Source of the DNA: Treponema sp.
GTDB taxonomy: Bacteria; Spirochaetota; Spirochaetia; Treponematales; Treponemataceae
NCBI GenBank assembly: GCA_024687165.1
Contig: JAILEY010000034.1
Coordinates: 1 to 34,704, forward strand
DNA: 34,704 nt
Reading direction: 5' to 3'
The position numbers and the translations under genes were made by a program. Below the pieces are notes generated by a model. That model searched no databases. It worked only from the letters and a program-made list of their open reading frames with translations, and was not told where the DNA came from. This document shows positions 19,331-29,868 of this stretch, one piece after another (within the stretch, counting starts at the first letter, position 1; every line of letters starts with the position of its first letter).

Positions 19331-20420
19331 ATTTCAGGTTGTTAAGATATCCGTTGAATTCTGCACCTGTGATTTCTTTTTCGGGTTCAAAATTAACACC
19401 GTCTTCAAGGTCCATGATTTCGTTTTCTACAACTCCAAGAATTGCATCAAAATCCTGATCAAAAAGATCAATATCTTCCACAGGACTTACGGCTCTTTCT
19501 TTTCCTCTCAGTTTTTCTGAATATTTATTTCCGTTGATTTTATGTTCGCTGATGTATAGGTTCCAGAGGAATCTTGCGCACAGACGTTTCGTAACTACAG
19601 AAATATCTTTTATCTCTTCTTTGTCTTTTTTTTCAATTGCAGAAATGCTTGCAAGAAGATTGTTTTTCATGAGGATTTTAAATAACTGCTGTTCAGAAAA
19701 CTTTTTTTCTCCTGTATAGTCTTCAATTTTTTCTGGAGTTGTCTCCTGAACTACATAAAACATTTTTGCAATCGTAATCCGCGGAAGTGCAAGAATCGCA
19801 ACAACAGATGAGTTTTCCGGAGTTACGTCTTTTAACTGCCATGCAGAAGCTCTTAAATCACTATAGGCATCCTTATAAAATTTATCCATGTCCTTGAATG
19901 CTTTATCAAAGAGTCCGCTTGAAACTGCAAAATTTGAATTCTGATAATTCTCAATTGCCATTTCAAGAGTAATAAGGTGCGGAAGATCATCTTGATCCTT
20001 GAATTTTTCTATAATCGAAAATTTTCCAAGACGGCGTCCAAGAATAAGAACTTCACTGTCTCCTGCAGATTTTTTTACTGCTTCTTTGTAGTTGCTTTCT
20101 GCGGCAGATTTATTTTTCAAAAGAAGATATGAGCGGCCCTTGAGTGCGTAAAGGCGTGCTTCAATAACTTTGTCCAGTGATGGAGTTTTAAGCTTTTCAT
20201 TAATGTCTTTCAACAGGCTGCTGATTTCCTTCTGGTCAATTTTGTTTCCCATCAGATCTTTTGCATCCTGGAAAACAAACTTTGATTCTACATCAGCTAC
20301 GAATGCAAAATCCTGAGTTTCTTCTGCGGAAACAAGAACATCTTTCTGTACGGAAGAACATCCACTAAATGCGGCAACAAGTGCTGCGGAACAAATTAAT
20401 GCTGAAAGTAATTTTTTCAT
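19329..20420 (-). CDS. Hypothetical TPR-like lipoprotein coupled to the large propeller protein
   Basis: Encodes 363 aa from ATG 20420, which overlaps the stop of the upstream gene as ATGA. The signal peptide (MKKLLSALICSAALVAAF) ends in SGC, a lipobox. The mature part is helical with TPR-like pairs (VIEARLYALKGRSYLLLKN, KSAAESNYKEAVKKS, YQNSNFAVSSGLFDKAFK). No catalytic motif. The ATGA overlap implies coupled, near-equal synthesis with the upstream membrane-anchored protein, so the two may form a complex at the envelope. Function unknown. Confidence 0.7.
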   Translation of the reverse strand: MKKLLSALICSAALVAAFSGCSSVQKDVLVSAEETQDFAFVADVESKFVFQDAKDLMGNKIDQKEISSLLKDINEKLKTPSLDKVIEARLYALKGRSYLLLKNKSAAESNYKEAVKKSAGDSEVLILGRRLGKFSIIEKFKDQDDLPHLITLEMAIENYQNSNFAVSSGLFDKAFKDMDKFYKDAYSDLRASAWQLKDVTPENSSVVAILALPRITIAKMFYVVQETTPEKIEDYTGEKKFSEQQLFKILMKNNLLASISAIEKKDKEEIKDISVVTKRLCARFLWNLYISEHKINGNKYSEKLRGKERAVSPVEDIDLFDQDFDAILGVVENEIMDLEDGVNFEPEKEITGAEFNGYLNNLK

Positions 20421-23353
20421 TTGTAATCCCATGCGTAAAGTTTTTTATCTGTTGAAAGAATGATACATTCATCCTTTGAGTCACCGTTAACATCTGCAAA
20501 TACAGGAATACCGTGTCCAATCAGCGGGAATGCAGGATAAAGTTCAAGATCTGAATTAAAGCCGTAGATAAGGTTTTCATCTGCACTTGCATAGACACCT
20601 TTGTTCTTTCCTGATCTGACAGTCGTTATAGTTCCTTCCTTTGCAGTTTTTGAAGTTGGAATCTGAACTGTTGTGTAATTTCCGTTCATGTTGATTTTGT
20701 AAACAAGAGCGTCGTCCCCAATCAGGTAGAATGCGTGGTCAAGGTATGCTGCATTTGTGTGGAATGTTGATTCAAGCTGTACCGGGAATCCTGGTGCGAT
20801 TGAATTGTTCTTGAAGAGATAGAATGCTCCGCTTTGAGTAACGAAAGCTGTGTATGTTAAACCGTCTTCTTCAACAAGACATGGAGAGCCGAATCCGATA
20901 CCTTCGATGTAGCATGTTTTTGATTCATCAAATTCTTTTGAAACGCTGTCTGCATAAAGAATCTGACCGTCAAATCCCTTTGCGTAGAATGCAAGCTTGT
21001 TTCCGCATACAGCAGGCTTTGTCCTAACTTTTCCAGCGTCTTCTGGAAGTTCTGCGTACTTGTTTTTCTCTGTGCTGTAGAAAACAATTCTTCCGTCTTT
21101 TGTAGGATAAATCAGTTCGTTCTTTGCTGTTGTGCACAATTCAAATGGATTTGCAGGACTGTCTGCGATTACAGGATATTTGTCGATTGCCTTTAAGCTT
21201 CTGTTCAAAAGATAAACTGTTCCGTTCGATGTAAGTGCCCACAAATCACCTTTGTCCTTAAGACTCTTTGCAAGAGGTGCAACGGCTGCTTTTCCCGCCA
21301 TAGGCATTCTGTTGTGCTGCAGGGAATCAAGTTCGAATGAATTTATATCGCGTGAATTTTCAACCCAGTAAACTGTATCTTTTTGTGAAGAACTCATCAG
21401 CTTGTAATCGAGTTTGCCCTGACATTCAACCGGGAATCCTTCAATAACTTTTGTTTCGTCTGATTTTACTGATGTTGCGTTGAGTTCAAATGAAAGTGTA
21501 TTTTCACCGATTCTTACGTCTGCGCGTCCGAATTTATAGAGCTTGAGGATTTTGCTTATCATGCTGTTCTGTGTGATAAAGAATGGCATGCTGCGTTCAA
21601 GGTTGTAGTAGAGGCTTAATGAAGAAGAGTCCTTGAGGTTTCCGGATGCGTCCTGCCATCTTTCTGTGTTTACAAGATAATCATTCTCTTTTGCCTGTGC
21701 GTAGATTGCGGAAAGATTCTGCGGTGAAAGACAGAAGTAAATGAAGTTTCCGTGTACAAAGTAATATGCTTTTGGAAGATCTACACTGAAGCATGAAAGA
21801 AGATTTGTAATAAAATCAGGAAGCTGGAGACATGGAATTCTTGCGCCTCCAAGGATAAGGCTTGAATTGTCTTTTATAAGCCACGATGAATCAAGTTTTT
21901 TGAATATGTTGATTCTCTGAGTTTCGTCTACAATCTGAAGTGCAAATACAGGATCAGAGTTTCCTTCCATTCCGATTACGCCGAGTTCTGAACCTGACCA
22001 CGAGAAGAGCATGTCTTCAACGGAAAGCCCAAGAAGTCTGTTTGACCATTTGTTTGCGTCTCTCCAGATTGATTTAATGTCCTGTGTTTTCTGCAGCAGC
22101 GGGAATGAAGCATCCTTCAACTCGTTGAGCGGTGCAATGTGAACGCTTGTGTAATACTGAGTTTTTCTTGTAAGCTCAGGAACAAGTGTACTCTTTACGC
22201 TTTTGTGTTCAAAAAGTTTCTTTGCTTCGAATTTTGAATTTTCAATGTCGAGCGGAAGCTTTGTTTCTACAGAAATATTTTTCTTGGAAATTGTAATCTG
22301 AATTGTTGATTTTTGTTCAGCATCAAACATTGTGTGAATATTTTCAAGCATCTTGTCGTCTTTAAGGAACTGCTTTGAAAGATATTTTGTGTCCGCAGAA
22401 ATTTTGATTTTGTGAGCTTCTGTTTTTGTCATTTCCTTTTCTTCAGCTTTTGAATAAGTGATATTATTCATGCCGGAAAGTGAGCGTGTTAAAAGCTCTT
22501 TTGAATCTGACGCAATCAAAAGATTTTTGTAGGTCTTAATGTAGAAAGTTGCATCTTCTGTTTCGTAAGTGATGTATTCCTTAAGATATTCACATTCTGC
22601 TTCTGAGTCGTGAACTACGCTGATTCCATTTAGTTCCTTCATTTTGATAAAAGGAAGAACTTTTGGTGCAAGTCTTGATGTAAATGAAAGATATGAAAGA
22701 TCAGCAACTGCAAGAAGTTTGAAAACATTCGGATCTTCATCGTTGTAGAAGGCGATATTTGCCTTTCTCTTAAGTAGGAACTGAATGAGCTTATTTCTGC
22801 GTACATCATTTTTTCTTAAATCCATGAACATCGGCCGCAATGATGAATATTCAGGATCTGCAAGGAAAGTGTCGCATGCTTCAAGATCAAGAATAGGGTT
22901 AAGAGAGTCGAAAACTGATTCCGTGTGAACAAAGGCCGCATAATTCTTTGGGAAAAGTGTAAGTGCATTTTTGCTGTCAATTGCGGAATAAAGGAACAGT
23001 ACGCTGAATAGTGCAAAAATAACTGCGCAGAATACGATCACTGCTTTTAATAGCCTTGCAAAGAAGCCCTTTTTCTTTTTTTCTGTTTTAGCAGGTGCTT
23101 CTTCTTGTGCAGCAGGTGCAGCTTTTTCTTCAGCAGGATTTTCAGCGGCTGGAGCTTCAGTTTTTTCAGCATCTTTTGCTTCTGAAGTTTCAGTTTCTCC
23201 TGTTACTGCAGCTTCTTCCTTTGGAGCTTCTGCTTCTACAGGATTTTCTATTTTTTCTGATTCTACTGCTGTTTCTTCAACAGCGTTTTCTGTAACAGAA
23301 TTGTCTGTTTTTTCTACAATCTGATTTTCGTCTTTGTTTTCAAAATTTTCCAT
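20417..23353 (-). CDS. Large membrane-anchored protein with acidic N-terminus and C-terminal beta-propeller
   Basis: Encodes 978 aa from ATG 23353. Residues 1-90 are an acidic Glu/Ala/Thr-rich low-complexity cytoplasmic tail, then KKKKG and one transmembrane helix (about 100-124). The long extracytoplasmic part begins with KNAALTLF-type sequence (FPKNYAAFVHTESVFDSL), resembling DUF3352-like domains. The last ~330 residues contain repeats like DLWALTSNGTVYLLNRSL, ELIYPTKDGRIVFYS and ADVNGDSKDECIILS, which are PQQ/FG-GAP-like propeller blades. The start is decided by the promoter: the other ATG at 23362 lies inside the -10 box. The role is unknown; an envelope-assembly or surface-scaffold role like BamB is one possibility. 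Confidence 0.75.
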   Translation of the reverse strand: MENFENKDENQIVEKTDNSVTENAVEETAVESEKIENPVEAEAPKEEAAVTGETETSEAKDAEKTEAPAAENPAEEKAAPAAQEEAPAKTEKKKKGFFARLLKAVIVFCAVIFALFSVLFLYSAIDSKNALTLFPKNYAAFVHTESVFDSLNPILDLEACDTFLADPEYSSLRPMFMDLRKNDVRRNKLIQFLLKRKANIAFYNDEDPNVFKLLAVADLSYLSFTSRLAPKVLPFIKMKELNGISVVHDSEAECEYLKEYITYETEDATFYIKTYKNLLIASDSKELLTRSLSGMNNITYSKAEEKEMTKTEAHKIKISADTKYLSKQFLKDDKMLENIHTMFDAEQKSTIQITISKKNISVETKLPLDIENSKFEAKKLFEHKSVKSTLVPELTRKTQYYTSVHIAPLNELKDASFPLLQKTQDIKSIWRDANKWSNRLLGLSVEDMLFSWSGSELGVIGMEGNSDPVFALQIVDETQRINIFKKLDSSWLIKDNSSLILGGARIPCLQLPDFITNLLSCFSVDLPKAYYFVHGNFIYFCLSPQNLSAIYAQAKENDYLVNTERWQDASGNLKDSSSLSLYYNLERSMPFFITQNSMISKILKLYKFGRADVRIGENTLSFELNATSVKSDETKVIEGFPVECQGKLDYKLMSSSQKDTVYWVENSRDINSFELDSLQHNRMPMAGKAAVAPLAKSLKDKGDLWALTSNGTVYLLNRSLKAIDKYPVIADSPANPFELCTTAKNELIYPTKDGRIVFYSTEKNKYAELPEDAGKVRTKPAVCGNKLAFYAKGFDGQILYADSVSKEFDESKTCYIEGIGFGSPCLVEEDGLTYTAFVTQSGAFYLFKNNSIAPGFPVQLESTFHTNAAYLDHAFYLIGDDALVYKINMNGNYTTVQIPTSKTAKEGTITTVRSGKNKGVYASADENLIYGFNSDLELYPAFPLIGHGIPVFADVNGDSKDECIILSTDKKLYAWDYK

Positions 23354-23360
23354 AGCTGAC

Positions 23361-23389
23361 ATTTTATCATATGATGCACATATAGTTAA
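23361..23389 (-). promoter_or_regulatory. Promoter of the 978-aa membrane protein, predicted leaderless start
   Basis: On the minus strand: TTAACT (23389-23384), 17-bp spacer, extended -10 TGATAAAAT (hexamer 23366-23361), then 7 nt to ATG 23353. Confidence 0.55.
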
Positions 23390-24990: not shown

Positions 24991-26235
24991 ATGAAAATCA
25001 AGAAATTTATTTTACCGCTTTTATTTATTAATGCCGTATTTTCTTATGCGAGTATGTCTGTATCAGAATTTTCAGCTGCCCCGGTCAATTCAACATATGT
25101 AGTACATGAGACAGGAGTTACGGTTTATTCAGCTCCGTCACTTGATTCAGAAAAAATAACTTTTCTTCCCCCGGGAACCCAGGTTCTTTTTTTGTCGTTA
25201 AACGGACCTAGTCATAAGGTTAAGGCATGGTGGGATGATCCTTCTGAGAAGTACGTTGACTGTAACTGGTCTGCAATCCTTTTACCGCCTGATTTAAGAA
25301 CAGATGATAATATTATGGGCTGGATTGAAACCTGTGATTATACCTGGTGGAGCTACCCTGAGGAATTTTCAACTGAAGAATGGACAAAGGAAACTCTTGA
25401 AGCTTATCTTAAAAACAGCGTCTGGTATCTTTCCTTTGAGTCGGATGAGTTTTATGATGGTCCAAAAAATGCCATCTGTGTGTTTGATGAAGGAGAATAT
25501 TCTGTATTTTTTTATGATGACGGAAAGCGAAGTTCACACAAAGATACATATTCAGTTAATTCTGTAAATTCACTCACTATGTATGGTGAGCAGGTTGAAG
25601 ATCTTAAAATAGGCAGCTATGAATTCAGTTTTAAGACTGATGAAGGATATTTCAATTTTAAGAAAATAAATTTAGCTTCCCTTGATTCAATTCCTGAATA
25701 CAATGATTCTAAAAAATATGAGCAGGCCCAGGCACTGATTTATAAGGCTTCAAAAAAATATTTCAGAATCTTTTCCCGTGATTATTATACTGAAGCAAAC
25801 ATCATGGATTATACTATGGAAGGTGAATGTGACAAGGCTTTAAGGCTGCTTGCGGTTACTGCCGGTGTAGATGTTGATATAGACAATAAAAGCTGGAGCG
25901 ATTATGGATTTAATGATTACTGGGGAAAAATCATCCGTGAATGTGAAGAAAGTGTAAAAAAAGGCAGTTACACATTTACACTAAAAGATCAGCAGCCTCT
26001 TTATCTTTTGGAGAATCATACTTATGTTACTGATGATCGTCTGCGTTTAAGAAAAAATGAAGATACTTCAAGTGAAATCATCACTACTATGGAAAAAGGC
26101 ACTGAGGTTAAAGTCCTTGAATACGGCAAGTTTGAGGTAATTGACGGTGCCGCAGGATACTGGGTTCACGTGCAGCTTAAGGGATCAAAAAAGAAAGGCT
26201 GGTGTTTCGGCGGCTTCTTAGAGGAAAAGAATTAA
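24991..26235 (+). CDS. Secreted protein with N- and C-terminal bacterial SH3 domains
   Basis: Encodes 414 aa with a signal peptide (MKIKKFILPLLFINAVFSYA). An SH3b-like domain occupies about residues 35-115 (VTVYSAPSLDSEKITFLPPG) and a second about 343-412 (LRLRKNEDTSSEIITTMEKG, then YWVHVQL and GWCFGGFL). The middle region is of unknown type and acidic. SH3b domains commonly bind peptidoglycan or peptides, so an envelope role is likely. TAAAAT (24979-24984) lies 6 nt before the ATG and there is no Shine-Dalgarno sequence, so the message may be leaderless, although the matching -35 is weak. It is divergent from the glucanase gene. Confidence 0.75.
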   Translation: MKIKKFILPLLFINAVFSYASMSVSEFSAAPVNSTYVVHETGVTVYSAPSLDSEKITFLPPGTQVLFLSLNGPSHKVKAWWDDPSEKYVDCNWSAILLPPDLRTDDNIMGWIETCDYTWWSYPEEFSTEEWTKETLEAYLKNSVWYLSFESDEFYDGPKNAICVFDEGEYSVFFYDDGKRSSHKDTYSVNSVNSLTMYGEQVEDLKIGSYEFSFKTDEGYFNFKKINLASLDSIPEYNDSKKYEQAQALIYKASKKYFRIFSRDYYTEANIMDYTMEGECDKALRLLAVTAGVDVDIDNKSWSDYGFNDYWGKIIRECEESVKKGSYTFTLKDQQPLYLLENHTYVTDDRLRLRKNEDTSSEIITTMEKGTEVKVLEYGKFEVIDGAAGYWVHVQLKGSKKKGWCFGGFLEEKN

Positions 26236-26285
26236 TGTTAGAGTAATTCATTGTAATTTTGAATTTTTATGAATACAATAAAATT

Positions 26286-26424
26286 GGCGCAAAGGAGTAT
26301 TGAGCGGAACGAAAACATTCTGTTTGTTGTTGTCGCGAAGCGACAAAGTGAATAGTTCCTTTACAACAAACAGCATGTAGATTCGATAGCATCGGTTTTG
26401 TTACGCGCAAGACGACTGGAAGTC
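26286..26424 (+). repeat. Palindromic dispersed repeat, copy A
   Basis: About 139 bp. The core CTGTTTGTTG (26320-26329) and CAACAAACAG (26364-26373) are inverted, with an inner TTGTCGC-GAA-GCGACAA hairpin (26330-26346). The whole element aligns to the reverse complement of 29673-29813 from end to end (same TTGAGC edge, same core, same GACTGG edge). It has no coding capacity. It fills most of the 259-bp gap before the mcp promoter. Confidence 0.85.
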
Positions 26425-26447
26425 AATTTTAATTTTTTTTTAGAGAG

Positions 26448-26476
26448 TTTATACTTTGCTTTTTTAGTGTTAAAAT
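26448..26476 (+). promoter_or_regulatory. mcp promoter
   Basis: TTTATA (26448-26453), 17-bp spacer, TAAAAT (26471-26476); GGAG at 26484-26487 serves the ATG at 26495 with 7-nt spacing. Confidence 0.45.
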
Positions 26477-26494
26477 ATATAGCGGAGTAAAACA

Positions 26495-28573
26495 ATGGCA
26501 AAAAAGCAGTATAAAATTTCAGTCATTCTTTGTGTTATTCTTGTTTCACTGGTTCTTGCAATTAATATCATTCAGGTAATTGCAATTTCTTCTTTCAGCA
26601 AAAAATCAACTGTTGAAAGCTACGCAATGGACTGCACTCAGATTACTAATGCGTATTCACTCGCGATTGCAAACAAAATCAGTGAGTATATGAACCAGAT
26701 GACATTCTATTCGGATGCCGATGTTGTCACGACTGGCAATAATGAAGAAATTGTAAAGTGGCTTAAAGAACACAACGGTACACGAAAAACTTATTTCTCT
26801 TCTATTTTATATGCGGGAAAAGATGGAATGGGCTACAGCGATACAGGCGGAATAGAAAATGTATCGACTGAGAGATTCTATAAAGAAATCATTCAGAACG
26901 GAAAATCAAGTTATGTTGATAATCCTGTTCGTGATTCAAACGGAAATCTTGTATTCCATATTGCACGTGCCGCAAAACTTCACGGTGAAATCATCGGGCT
27001 TTTCTCTGCTGTAGTTTCTCTTGATAACGTTAAAAATATGGTTGAGTATATTCAGCTTGGAGACTCAGGACAGACATGGATTATTGCTGATAACGGAACT
27101 GTTGTTGCAAATATGAATCAGAATGCAATAATGCGCCTTAATCTTCTTGACGGTTCTGCATCTGTAAAAAATCTTATTCAAAAAGCTGTAAACGGCGGAA
27201 TTGGAACAGGTTGGGTTAAAAACTGGGGCGATCTTCCGGGTGATGTTTTTGTAACTTACACACCGATTGCTTATACTCCATGGGTTCTTGCTTTTACAAT
27301 TGGAGAAGATCAGGTTTATAAAACTGGTAATATGCTGCAGAGCACAACAATGATTATTTCAATTTTTACAATTCTTGTGCTTGCCGCTTCTATTCTTTTG
27401 ATTTCAGGCTTTATGCTTAAGCCGCTTGGAGTTGTTGAAAAATCAATCAACGAAATTGCTTCTGGTCATGCGGATTTAACACAGCGTATTCAGCTTAATT
27501 CAAAAACTGAAATCGGTTCTGTAGTTGAAGGCTTCAACAGCTTTACAGCAAAATTGCAGAGTATTGTCAGTGAGCTTAAAAAGTCAAAGGAGCAGCTTTC
27601 TGATGCAGGGGATAAAATGCATGACTGTTCTCTGGAAACCGCTTCATCAAATTCTCAGATTCTTGAAAATATCGATACTGTTTCAGAGAGAATTTCACAT
27701 CAGTCTGCAAGCGTTGAACAGACAGCGGGTGCAGTTAACGAAATCGCATCTAACATTGAATCTCTTGAGCGAATGATTGAGCAGATGGTTCAGAGTGTTT
27801 CACAGGCAAGTGCTGCCGTTGAACAGATGATCGGCAATATTGATTCTGTAAATGATTCTGTTAAAAAGATGGCAGATCAGTTTGAAGAACTTGAAGGAAC
27901 TTCTGCAGTCGGAACAGAAAAACAGAATGATGTAAATGAAAAAATTGCTGTAATTGAACAGGAATCGGTAATGCTTCAGGAAGCAAACACTGCAATTGCA
28001 AGTATTGCAAGTCAGACAAATCTTCTTGCGATGAATGCGGCAATTGAAGCAGCTCATGCGGGTGAAGCAGGAAAGGGCTTTGCTGTTGTTGCTGATGAAA
28101 TCAGAAAGTTGTCTGAAACTTCTACAGTTCAGTCAAAGACAATCGGAATGCAGCTTAAGAAAATCCGCGATTCAATTACAAGTGTTGTTGAAGCATCCCA
28201 GGCTTCAAGTTATGCGTTTAATTCTGTAACTGAAAAAATCCAGAGCACAGATATGCTTGTAAATCAGATTAAGGGTGCAATGCAGGAACAGGCAGAAGGT
28301 TCCCGTCAGATTGGTAGTGCCTTGAGTACGATGAATGACAGCACTCTTGAAGTCCGCACTGCATCAAAGGAAATGTCAGAAGGAAATCAGGCAATTCTTC
28401 AGGAAATCAAGCAGCTTCAGGATGCAACGGGTGCAATTAAGGAAAGTATGAGTGTAATCTCTAAGACTACAGAAAAAATTACAGAAACAGGTCAGTCACT
28501 CGATAATATTACAAAAATCATGTACGACTCAATTGTTGAAATTGGAAATCAGGTTGATCAGTTTACGGTCTAG
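26495..28573 (+). CDS. Methyl-accepting chemotaxis protein with periplasmic dCache sensor
   Basis: Encodes 692 aa. TM1 (about 8-31), a ~250-residue periplasmic dCache-type domain ([38 protein letters not shown] and a membrane-proximal second module), TM2 (about 283-307), HAMP (about 308-360), and a long coiled-coil signalling domain. The kinase-control tip is canonical ([20 protein letters not shown], then [13 protein letters not shown]). It would couple ligand sensing to CheA/CheW. The next gene, 9 nt downstream, encodes a sugar-binding lipoprotein, so the receptor may sense a bound binding protein, a free ligand, or both. Confidence 0.93.
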
Positions 28574-28582
28574 GGGGAAAAA

Positions 28583-29662
28583 ATGAAAAAGATTTTATTA
28601 ATTTTGATTTCAGCAGTTTTTGCTTTTTCTTTTTCTGGATGTTCAAAAGATAAGGATTCAAAAAAGAAGGTGGTAGGGGTTCTTCTCCGCAACGATTATG
28701 ACGCTTTTTTTGTTGCTTACAAAAGCGGATTGATTGAGGCTGCACAACAGGATGGCATTTCACTTCAAATTTATTCTGCAAATAATGATGCTGCAATTCA
28801 GATTGATCAGATGAAAACATTGCTTTTGAATGGTGTAAAAAACTTTGTCATCGTTGCACACAGTACTGATTTGACTGAGCAGATGGCAAAGATAATAAGT
28901 TCACAAGGTGGTTCTGCTGCTTTCTCAAATATTATTCCGTCTATTGATGCTTTAAGAGTTGGTAAGAATTTTTTCTATGCTTCATCTCCAGAAACTGATG
29001 CGGGAAATTTCCAGGCACAGATTATTGATGATTACTTTAAGAAAAATCCTGGAAAACTTTCAGGAAAAAAACTGAAGGTGATTTATTTTAACGGTGAGTA
29101 TGGTCATCCTGCTCAGATTTACAGAAAAGTCGGTGTAATGGAAGGCCTTGCAAAACTCGGGTATGATGTTGAAGTTATAGCAGAGTATGGTGCAAACTGG
29201 GATCGCTCAAGTGCCCGCCAGTATCTTGATCTGTTCATCGAAGGAAAGGGTAAGAAAGAAAAGTTTGATGTTGTAATCGCTCAGAACGATGAAATGGCTC
29301 TTGGTGCTGTTGATTCGCTTGTAAATCATGGTTACGTTGATAATCCATCAAACCCGACTCTTGATGCAGATAATGACGGTACAGCCCTTCGTGTTCCTGT
29401 TCTTGGAATTGATGCAACTGAAGGCGGAAAAAAATCAATGCGCGACAATCAGATGTATGGAACTGTACTTCAGGATGCAAATGCTCAGGCTGAAACGGCT
29501 CTTGAACTTGTGTACCAGTGCATGAAGAACGGTTCGGCACAGGGATACACCACAAAAGCCGGTTTGAGGTCTGCATCTCAGGTAACAAAAGAAGCTCCAC
29601 TTACTGAAAGATCAGTTATTGATCAGTGTTTCGTAGTTCCTTTTGTTCCTGTTAAAAAATAA
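28583..29662 (+). CDS. Periplasmic sugar-binding lipoprotein (Peripla_BP_4, MglB/RbsB-like)
   Basis: Encodes 359 aa. The signal peptide ends in FSGC, a lipobox. The fold is that of ribose/galactose-type ABC binding proteins: VVGVLLRNDYDAFFVAYKSG, DQMKTLLLNGVKNFVIV, FDVVIAQNDEMALGAVDSL, then VPVLGIDATEGGKKSM and YGTVLQDANAQAETALEL. A DADNDG segment resembles the calcium loop of galactose-binding proteins. GGGGGA lies 6 nt upstream and the mcp gene ends 9 nt before, so the two are co-transcribed. No permease or ATPase gene is adjacent, suggesting a chemosensory rather than transport role. The exact sugar is unknown. Confidence 0.88.
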   Translation: MKKILLILISAVFAFSFSGCSKDKDSKKKVVGVLLRNDYDAFFVAYKSGLIEAAQQDGISLQIYSANNDAAIQIDQMKTLLLNGVKNFVIVAHSTDLTEQMAKIISSQGGSAAFSNIIPSIDALRVGKNFFYASSPETDAGNFQAQIIDDYFKKNPGKLSGKKLKVIYFNGEYGHPAQIYRKVGVMEGLAKLGYDVEVIAEYGANWDRSSARQYLDLFIEGKGKKEKFDVVIAQNDEMALGAVDSLVNHGYVDNPSNPTLDADNDGTALRVPVLGIDATEGGKKSMRDNQMYGTVLQDANAQAETALELVYQCMKNGSAQGYTTKAGLRSASQVTKEAPLTERSVIDQCFVVPFVPVKK

Positions 29663-29672
29663 ATATCCAATT

Positions 29673-29813
29673 GGCTCCCAGTCGCGTTGAGCAGTCCAAA
29701 ATCGATGCTTTACAGCATCTATATACTGTTTGTTGCAAGGTAACTATTAATAATGTCGCTGTCGCGACAGCAACAAACAGAATATTTTCGTCCTGCTCAA
29801 CATTCTTCGCACC
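29673..29813 (-). repeat. Palindromic dispersed repeat, copy B (inverted)
   Basis: About 141 bp, inverted relative to copy A. On the plus strand it has terminal inverted repeats GTTGAGCAG (29686-29694) and CTGCTCAAC (29793-29801), a GATGC/GCATC stem (29704-29719), the CTGTTTGTTG...CAACAAACAG core (29726-29780) and a perfect 14-bp palindrome GCTGTCGCGACAGC (29758-29771). It is non-coding and lies between the convergent binding-protein and reductase genes. Confidence 0.85.
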
Positions 29814-29868
29814 AATTTTATTATATCTTTAACAATTCGAAATTAAGACTAAATATATTGAACGGAAA

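Follow-up and report, generated by a model that had tools for sequence, protein, structure and literature searches.

The Correia repeat enclosed elements (CREE) of Neisseria insert with a TA target duplication. They are otherwise intergenic, MITE-like repeats of ~150 bp that have a conserved core as well as terminal inverted repeats, can fold as RNA and are present in many copies (PMC2649163). Inversion of CREE in place in N. gonorrhoeae, a precedent for reversal of a core, is mentioned as a cited report in PMC10969869. The SPRITE, RUP and BOX repeats of Streptococcus pneumoniae are interspersed, folded and enriched between convergent genes; SPRITE, with AAAA/TTTT ends and a position near gene 3' ends, has been proposed to be a co-opted terminator (PMC3049150). 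Rickettsia palindromic elements and the QMITEs of Coxiella are small palindromic repeats that fold as RNA and amplify within one lineage (PMC5896051, PMC10969869).

The window analysed here, a 34,704-nt stretch of the genome of a Treponema sp. (G000), contains two repeats, copies A and B, that are ordinary members of a high-copy, tightly folded MITE-like family of gut Treponema with no earlier name. The family shares the general build of CREE, from which it differs in phylum, in having target duplications of 10 bp or ~6 bp, and in a covarying three-way-junction core that recurs inside several terminal shells unrelated to one another. SPRITE consists of one simple long hairpin, whereas the Treponema element has a complex conserved fold and relatives with transposon ends.

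An initial annotation had described A and B as an inverted pair aligning over their whole length, and this was borne out. Copy A matched the reverse complement of copy B with 77% identity over 191 columns (BLAST, E 6e-34), and a repeat search joined the two through three inverted blocks in succession (44, 44 and 41 nt, 80–86% identity). The ends then assigned to them needed revision, as the cores have the limits given in Table 1 and degenerate terminal arms of ~34 nt lie beyond; on one side the homology reaches as far out as 26254 and 29845. The sequences GTTGAGCAG and CTGCTCAAC, taken for terminal inverted repeats of copy B, are the internal stem P2 of the fold, and the inner hairpins, described as diverged, do differ in sequence but fold identically in both copies. 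Copy B is flanked by a possible 7-bp direct repeat, TAAATAT, which is AT-rich and may have arisen by chance; its first occurrence overlaps the stop codon of the binding-protein gene, where the right terminal arm of copy B is absent. Copy A showed no clear target duplication.

Table 1. Features of copies A and B and neighbouring genes in the window; the training sequences of the covariance model (CM) behind the two scores included copies A and B themselves.
Feature	Position	Strand	Evidence
Copy A core, 142-nt three-way-junction palindrome	26284..26425	+	CM R1 138.7 bits, E 3e-35
Copy A left terminal arm, degenerate, outer edge approximate	26251..26283	+	Family alignment
Copy A right terminal arm, T-rich, degenerate, edge approximate	26426..26459	+	Family alignment
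Copy A, P3 stem 5' strand CTGTTTGTTG	26320..26329	+	
Copy A, P3 stem 3' strand CAACAAACAG	26364..26373	+	
Inverted block I3	26254-26294 with 29805-29845		Supports copy A left arm
Copy B core, 144-nt three-way-junction palindrome	29672..29815	-	CM R1 138.2 bits, E 4e-35
Copy B left terminal arm GTCTTAATTTCGAATTGTTAAAGATATAATAAAA	29816..29849	-	2 mismatches to genome-wide arm pattern
Copy B, possible target duplication TAAATAT	29660..29666	+	Read from sequence
Copy B, second TAAATAT, possible 7-bp direct repeat	29850..29856	+	Read from sequence
Methyl-accepting chemotaxis protein (dCache_1, HAMP, MCPsignal); neighbour, outside element	26495..28573	+	Pfam
Periplasmic binding protein (Peripla_BP_4); neighbour, outside element	28583..29662	+	Pfam

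The core of ~143 nt is predicted to fold into an outer stem (P1 and P2), an internal loop in which the conserved GCGAAGGAG faces GACTGGGAG, and a three-way junction bearing a long stem, P3 (CTGTTTGTTG/CAACAAACAG in copy A), and a side hairpin, P4. P3 contains an apical hairpin and a conserved AUAGUUWCU stretch. Predicted folding energies were -43.6 kcal/mol (z -3.3) for the core of copy A and -57.5 kcal/mol (z -6.7) for that of copy B. Over five genomes, 97.7% of alignment cells were paired, falling to at most 46% in slid-partner controls, and double-sided changes were found in 104 cells against 31 after shuffling. Family-wide compensation arises mainly between diverged copies: it was modest among vertical orthologues, with 10 compensated and 8 broken pairs, and orthologous pairs of the replaced class had 75 and 7. 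Part of the covariation could stem from template switching within hairpins or from gene conversion, and it is therefore read as a conserved fold and not, by itself, as RNA function.

A BLAST query with copy A scored 40 places in the 2.38-Mb genome at 76–100% identity, the best 40 of 135 candidates. A covariance model built from 23 copies in five genomes gave 74 hits at E 0.01, fragments included, of which 57 scored above 85 bits and were near full length. The genome-wide count of the core that the initial annotation proposed thus arrives at ~57 near-full-length copies, so that A and B are not a special pair. Elsewhere in the window, a weak covariance-model match at 22245-22401 (12.4 bits, E 0.15) falls within the coding region 20417-23362 and is probably due to chance. 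Of the 146 genomes sampled from the genus, 78 carried the family, often with at least 21 copies per genome, and its copies are dispersed, shorter than ~600 bp and without coding capacity. A strict pattern searched over 85,000 species matched 94 stretches, including the isolates T. bryantii NK4A124 and XBD1002; among the 80 listed, all were Spirochaetales/Treponema records, and viral contigs gave no match. Rfam gave no match in the window at the gathering score and nothing up to E 1 at the loci of five copies, and no published description of the repeat was found in the literature searched on Treponema and on candidate structured RNAs, which took in few subscription journals. The motifs GTTGAGC/GCTCAAC prompted a comparison with integron attC sites, which was rejected on the sequence itself, the motif order being reversed and copies being spread over dozens of contigs; a retron msr-msd or ribozyme identity was set aside, being without Rfam support. 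In G010 and G145, many contigs start or stop within the repeat, at about base 30-200, and short-read assembly of these genomes is therefore limited.

The clearest signs of mobility came from relatives. In six genomes (G145, G107, G135, G010, G006 and G021) the core is framed by CAGGGC(AAA|TTC)CGCATTATAAA ... GCCCTG, and exact direct repeats of at least 8 bp lay directly outside these ends in 16 of 28 copies, 14 of them with at least 10 bp, compared with 0.26% of mismatched flank pairs. An ISAs1-family insertion sequence (IS) of 1279 bp in G160 encodes a 388-aa transposase matching PF13808 and PF01609. Its ends are CAGGGCAAACGCATGTAAAAA, with the first 14 bases identical to the ends of the CAGGG copies; it is flanked by 10-bp duplications, and core-bearing repeats adjoin two copies of it. 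Because ends and duplication length match, the copies of these six genomes are taken to be MITEs of an ISAs1-type transposase, and their mobilisation in trans by such an enzyme would be the natural inference. Beyond these shared features the two differ: the repeat has no coding sequence and an inner core that bears no relation to the IS, and the copies of G000 lack such ends.

Several further loci were recorded in these and other genomes. At two loci in G160 (L268 and L271) an ISAs1-type IS lies within or directly next to partial or full repeat copies, and G006, which has CAGGG copies, also contains a transposase remnant of this type with two in-frame stops (L265, G006:C150:2052-2195). The exact direct repeat around one mobile copy in G145 (L119, contig C54) is 20 bp long rather than 10 bp. 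In G112 (L164 and L165) the core occurs in an apparently further terminal shell with GCCGAGTTT/AACTCGGC-like arms.

In the window genome, the terminal arms GNCYTAATTTCGAATT (GNCYTAATTTCGAATTATTATAGATATAATAAAATTGG) differ from the CAGGG ends, and 7 of 37 copies had a 6-bp duplication at a fixed spot (control, 3.0%). No match to PF13808 or PF01609 and no DDE_Tnp_1 partner was found in this genome, which is 97% complete, and a search with the arm pattern for a parent IS returned internally deleted copies of the repeat and nothing else. Eight loci (L283-L290, on contigs C55, C62, C69, C82, C13, C86, C53 and C71) have kept the arms and lost the palindromic core mostly or wholly, as in TTGG-CGCGACTGGGAGCCAA, and the palindrome is therefore considered deletion-prone. 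Given the different ends, the weak ~6-bp duplications, the divergence among copies and the missing DDE_Tnp_1, the copies of G000 are probably old and immobile. As their arms are unlike CAGGG and their duplications shorter and weaker, A and B are linked to ISAs1 through core homology alone. The initial suggestion that A and B are MITE-like is thus upheld by copy number, intergenic sites, terminal inverted repeats and target duplications, the last strong in relatives and weak here, and is further supported by relatives in which the neighbouring gene pair is free of the element; the transposase with matching ends that it called for exists in a relative (G160) and was not found in the window genome. 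Rickettsia palindromic elements can insert in reading frames, whereas no Treponema copy was found inside a gene. All parsed copies of G000 are intergenic, with roughly a third each between tandem genes in the same orientation as the copy, divergent genes and convergent genes, and few between tandem genes in the opposite orientation.

At orthologous sites in relatives the core lies in either orientation. Two-sided flank matching defined 39 orthologous pairs at 23 loci, and the core was opposite in orientation at 8 of these loci (13 pairs), a call to be read with caution as most genomes compared are draft assemblies. Reversed cores were 75–91% identical when compared in core orientation and 47–60% otherwise. 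The element has palindromic ends, and its core can therefore turn round or be exchanged for another at the same site. Instead of inversion of one copy, the opposite orientations may reflect independent insertions at preferred sites or replacement by another copy, an explanation whose chance is only a little short of even. The orthologue is not the best match at about half of the orthologous loci, and at the other reversed and many unreversed loci it ranks 3rd to 25th, which points to replacement by another copy or to renewed insertion. However, the reversed pairs L354/L377 and L325/L309 are mutual best matches and L343/L305 ranks 1-2, and these point to inversion.

A resident form of the repeat was found in four genomes, G004, G039, G067 and G077, here labelled clade b for having this form and not as a tested clade. 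Most of their copies lack recognisable ends, although some retain CGCATTATAA remnants. None of 90 copies lies inside a gene, and 33 of 90 sites are convergent; among neighbouring genes of the window, 3 of 26 pairs are. The distance from stop codon to core was at most 60 nt in 99 of 113 cases (median 21), and at least 5 A in the 8 nt before the core together with at least 5 T in the 8 nt after it were present in 47 of 90. By their layout, these copies look like bidirectional intrinsic terminators, in line with the suggestion made for SPRITE in pneumococcus (PMC3049150). A stable hairpin with a direct U-tract after a stop codon was found among clade b copies only, and a simple terminator scan near copy A found none. 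As the copies of G000 lie between divergent genes as often as between convergent ones, a role at 3' ends would not be general.

These observations raise the possibility that the core is primarily a structured RNA useful to the host, in 3'-end formation, stability or regulation, selected as RNA and only secondarily mobile. This would account for the compensatory changes across genomes and for the retention of orthologous copies in four genomes directly after stop codons with A/T tracts. It would also fit the 87 G-U pairs against 26 A-C mismatches in clade b, a strand test not taken as proof because its cells are not independent; in G000 the same counts were 9 and 10, with no excess. The orientation of the core relative to genes is not conserved, however, 68 of the 146 genomes have no match, and other genomes show recent amplification with duplications. 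A primary role as host RNA is considered unlikely.

The repeats do bracket the chemotaxis and binding-protein genes, as first described, yet ~55 further near-full copies are spread over the rest of the genome. The same gene pair, in the same order, was found in G016, G039, G004, G003, G015 and G002, and no element was present in 61.6 kb around the pair in those relatives or around the binding-protein gene of G045. The outer neighbours of the pair differ, and the comparison is not base-exact. A and B are private to the window lineage within the genomes sampled and, since the pair exists without repeats in relatives, are regarded as separate insertions. Copy A probably acts as an insulator between the gene at 24991-26235 and the chemotaxis gene, and copy B sits between convergent genes ending at 29662 and 29869.

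The proposal that A and B might jointly mobilise or invert the 3.5-kb operon, drawn from their inverted placement on either side of the two genes, is very improbable. An exact match of 13 bp is below the length needed for RecA-type recombination. With 77% overall identity and a longest common exact run of 13 bp, inversion of the operon by this route is unlikely; the ~57 copies across the genome, the element-free gene pairs in relatives and the lack of a DDE_Tnp_1 transposase in the genome also stand against it, and neither copy is expected to invert the operon. The GTAG that precedes the P4 hairpin in many copies suggested a REP/REPIN-type element dependent on a RAYT (Y1) transposase. This is very improbable too: GTAG is not conserved across all subfamilies, no Y1_Tnp was found in five of ten carriers (G004, G039, G067, G077 and G160), G000 has a sub-threshold Y1_Tnp fragment only, and long terminal repeats occur with 10-bp duplications.

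Taken as a whole, it is likely that A and B inserted independently, as copies of an element of ~180-220 bp that is non-autonomous, MITE-like and specific to Treponema, its structured 143-nt core flanked by terminal arms. In relatives, an ISAs1-family transposase would recognise the CAGGGCAAACGCAT ends and move the element in trans, leaving 10-bp target duplications. The copies of the window genome, with other ends, ~6-bp duplications, mutual divergence and no remaining DDE_Tnp_1 transposase, would represent an old and probably immobile population. Insertions would persist in intergenic DNA, and those directly 3' of stop codons could stay as terminator-like hairpins with A/T tracts. The core is inverted or swapped in place, probably by recombination or template switching.

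A more tentative reading, held at clearly less than even confidence, is that the folded core is itself the persisting unit, which resembles an exchangeable RNA cassette, occurs in several unrelated shells (the ISAs1-type CAGGG ends, the G000 arms and the further type in G112), has a terminator-like afterlife and is inverted or swapped in place. After decay of a shell, the core would stay at fixed sites and swap between dispersed copies via its palindromic base.

A structured repeat family is thereby named that is spread through roughly one in two of the genomes sampled from a major gut and rumen genus and has a likely transposase in relatives; in draft genomes of Treponema, many contigs have such a repeat at an end. 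Its copies form a natural series between two states: transposon copies that were amplified recently and, at orthologous sites, resident elements that resemble terminators, with 143 nt of covarying structure to follow. This series makes it testable how mobile DNA turns into a 3'-end element, and how long palindromes reverse in place within bacterial chromosomes.
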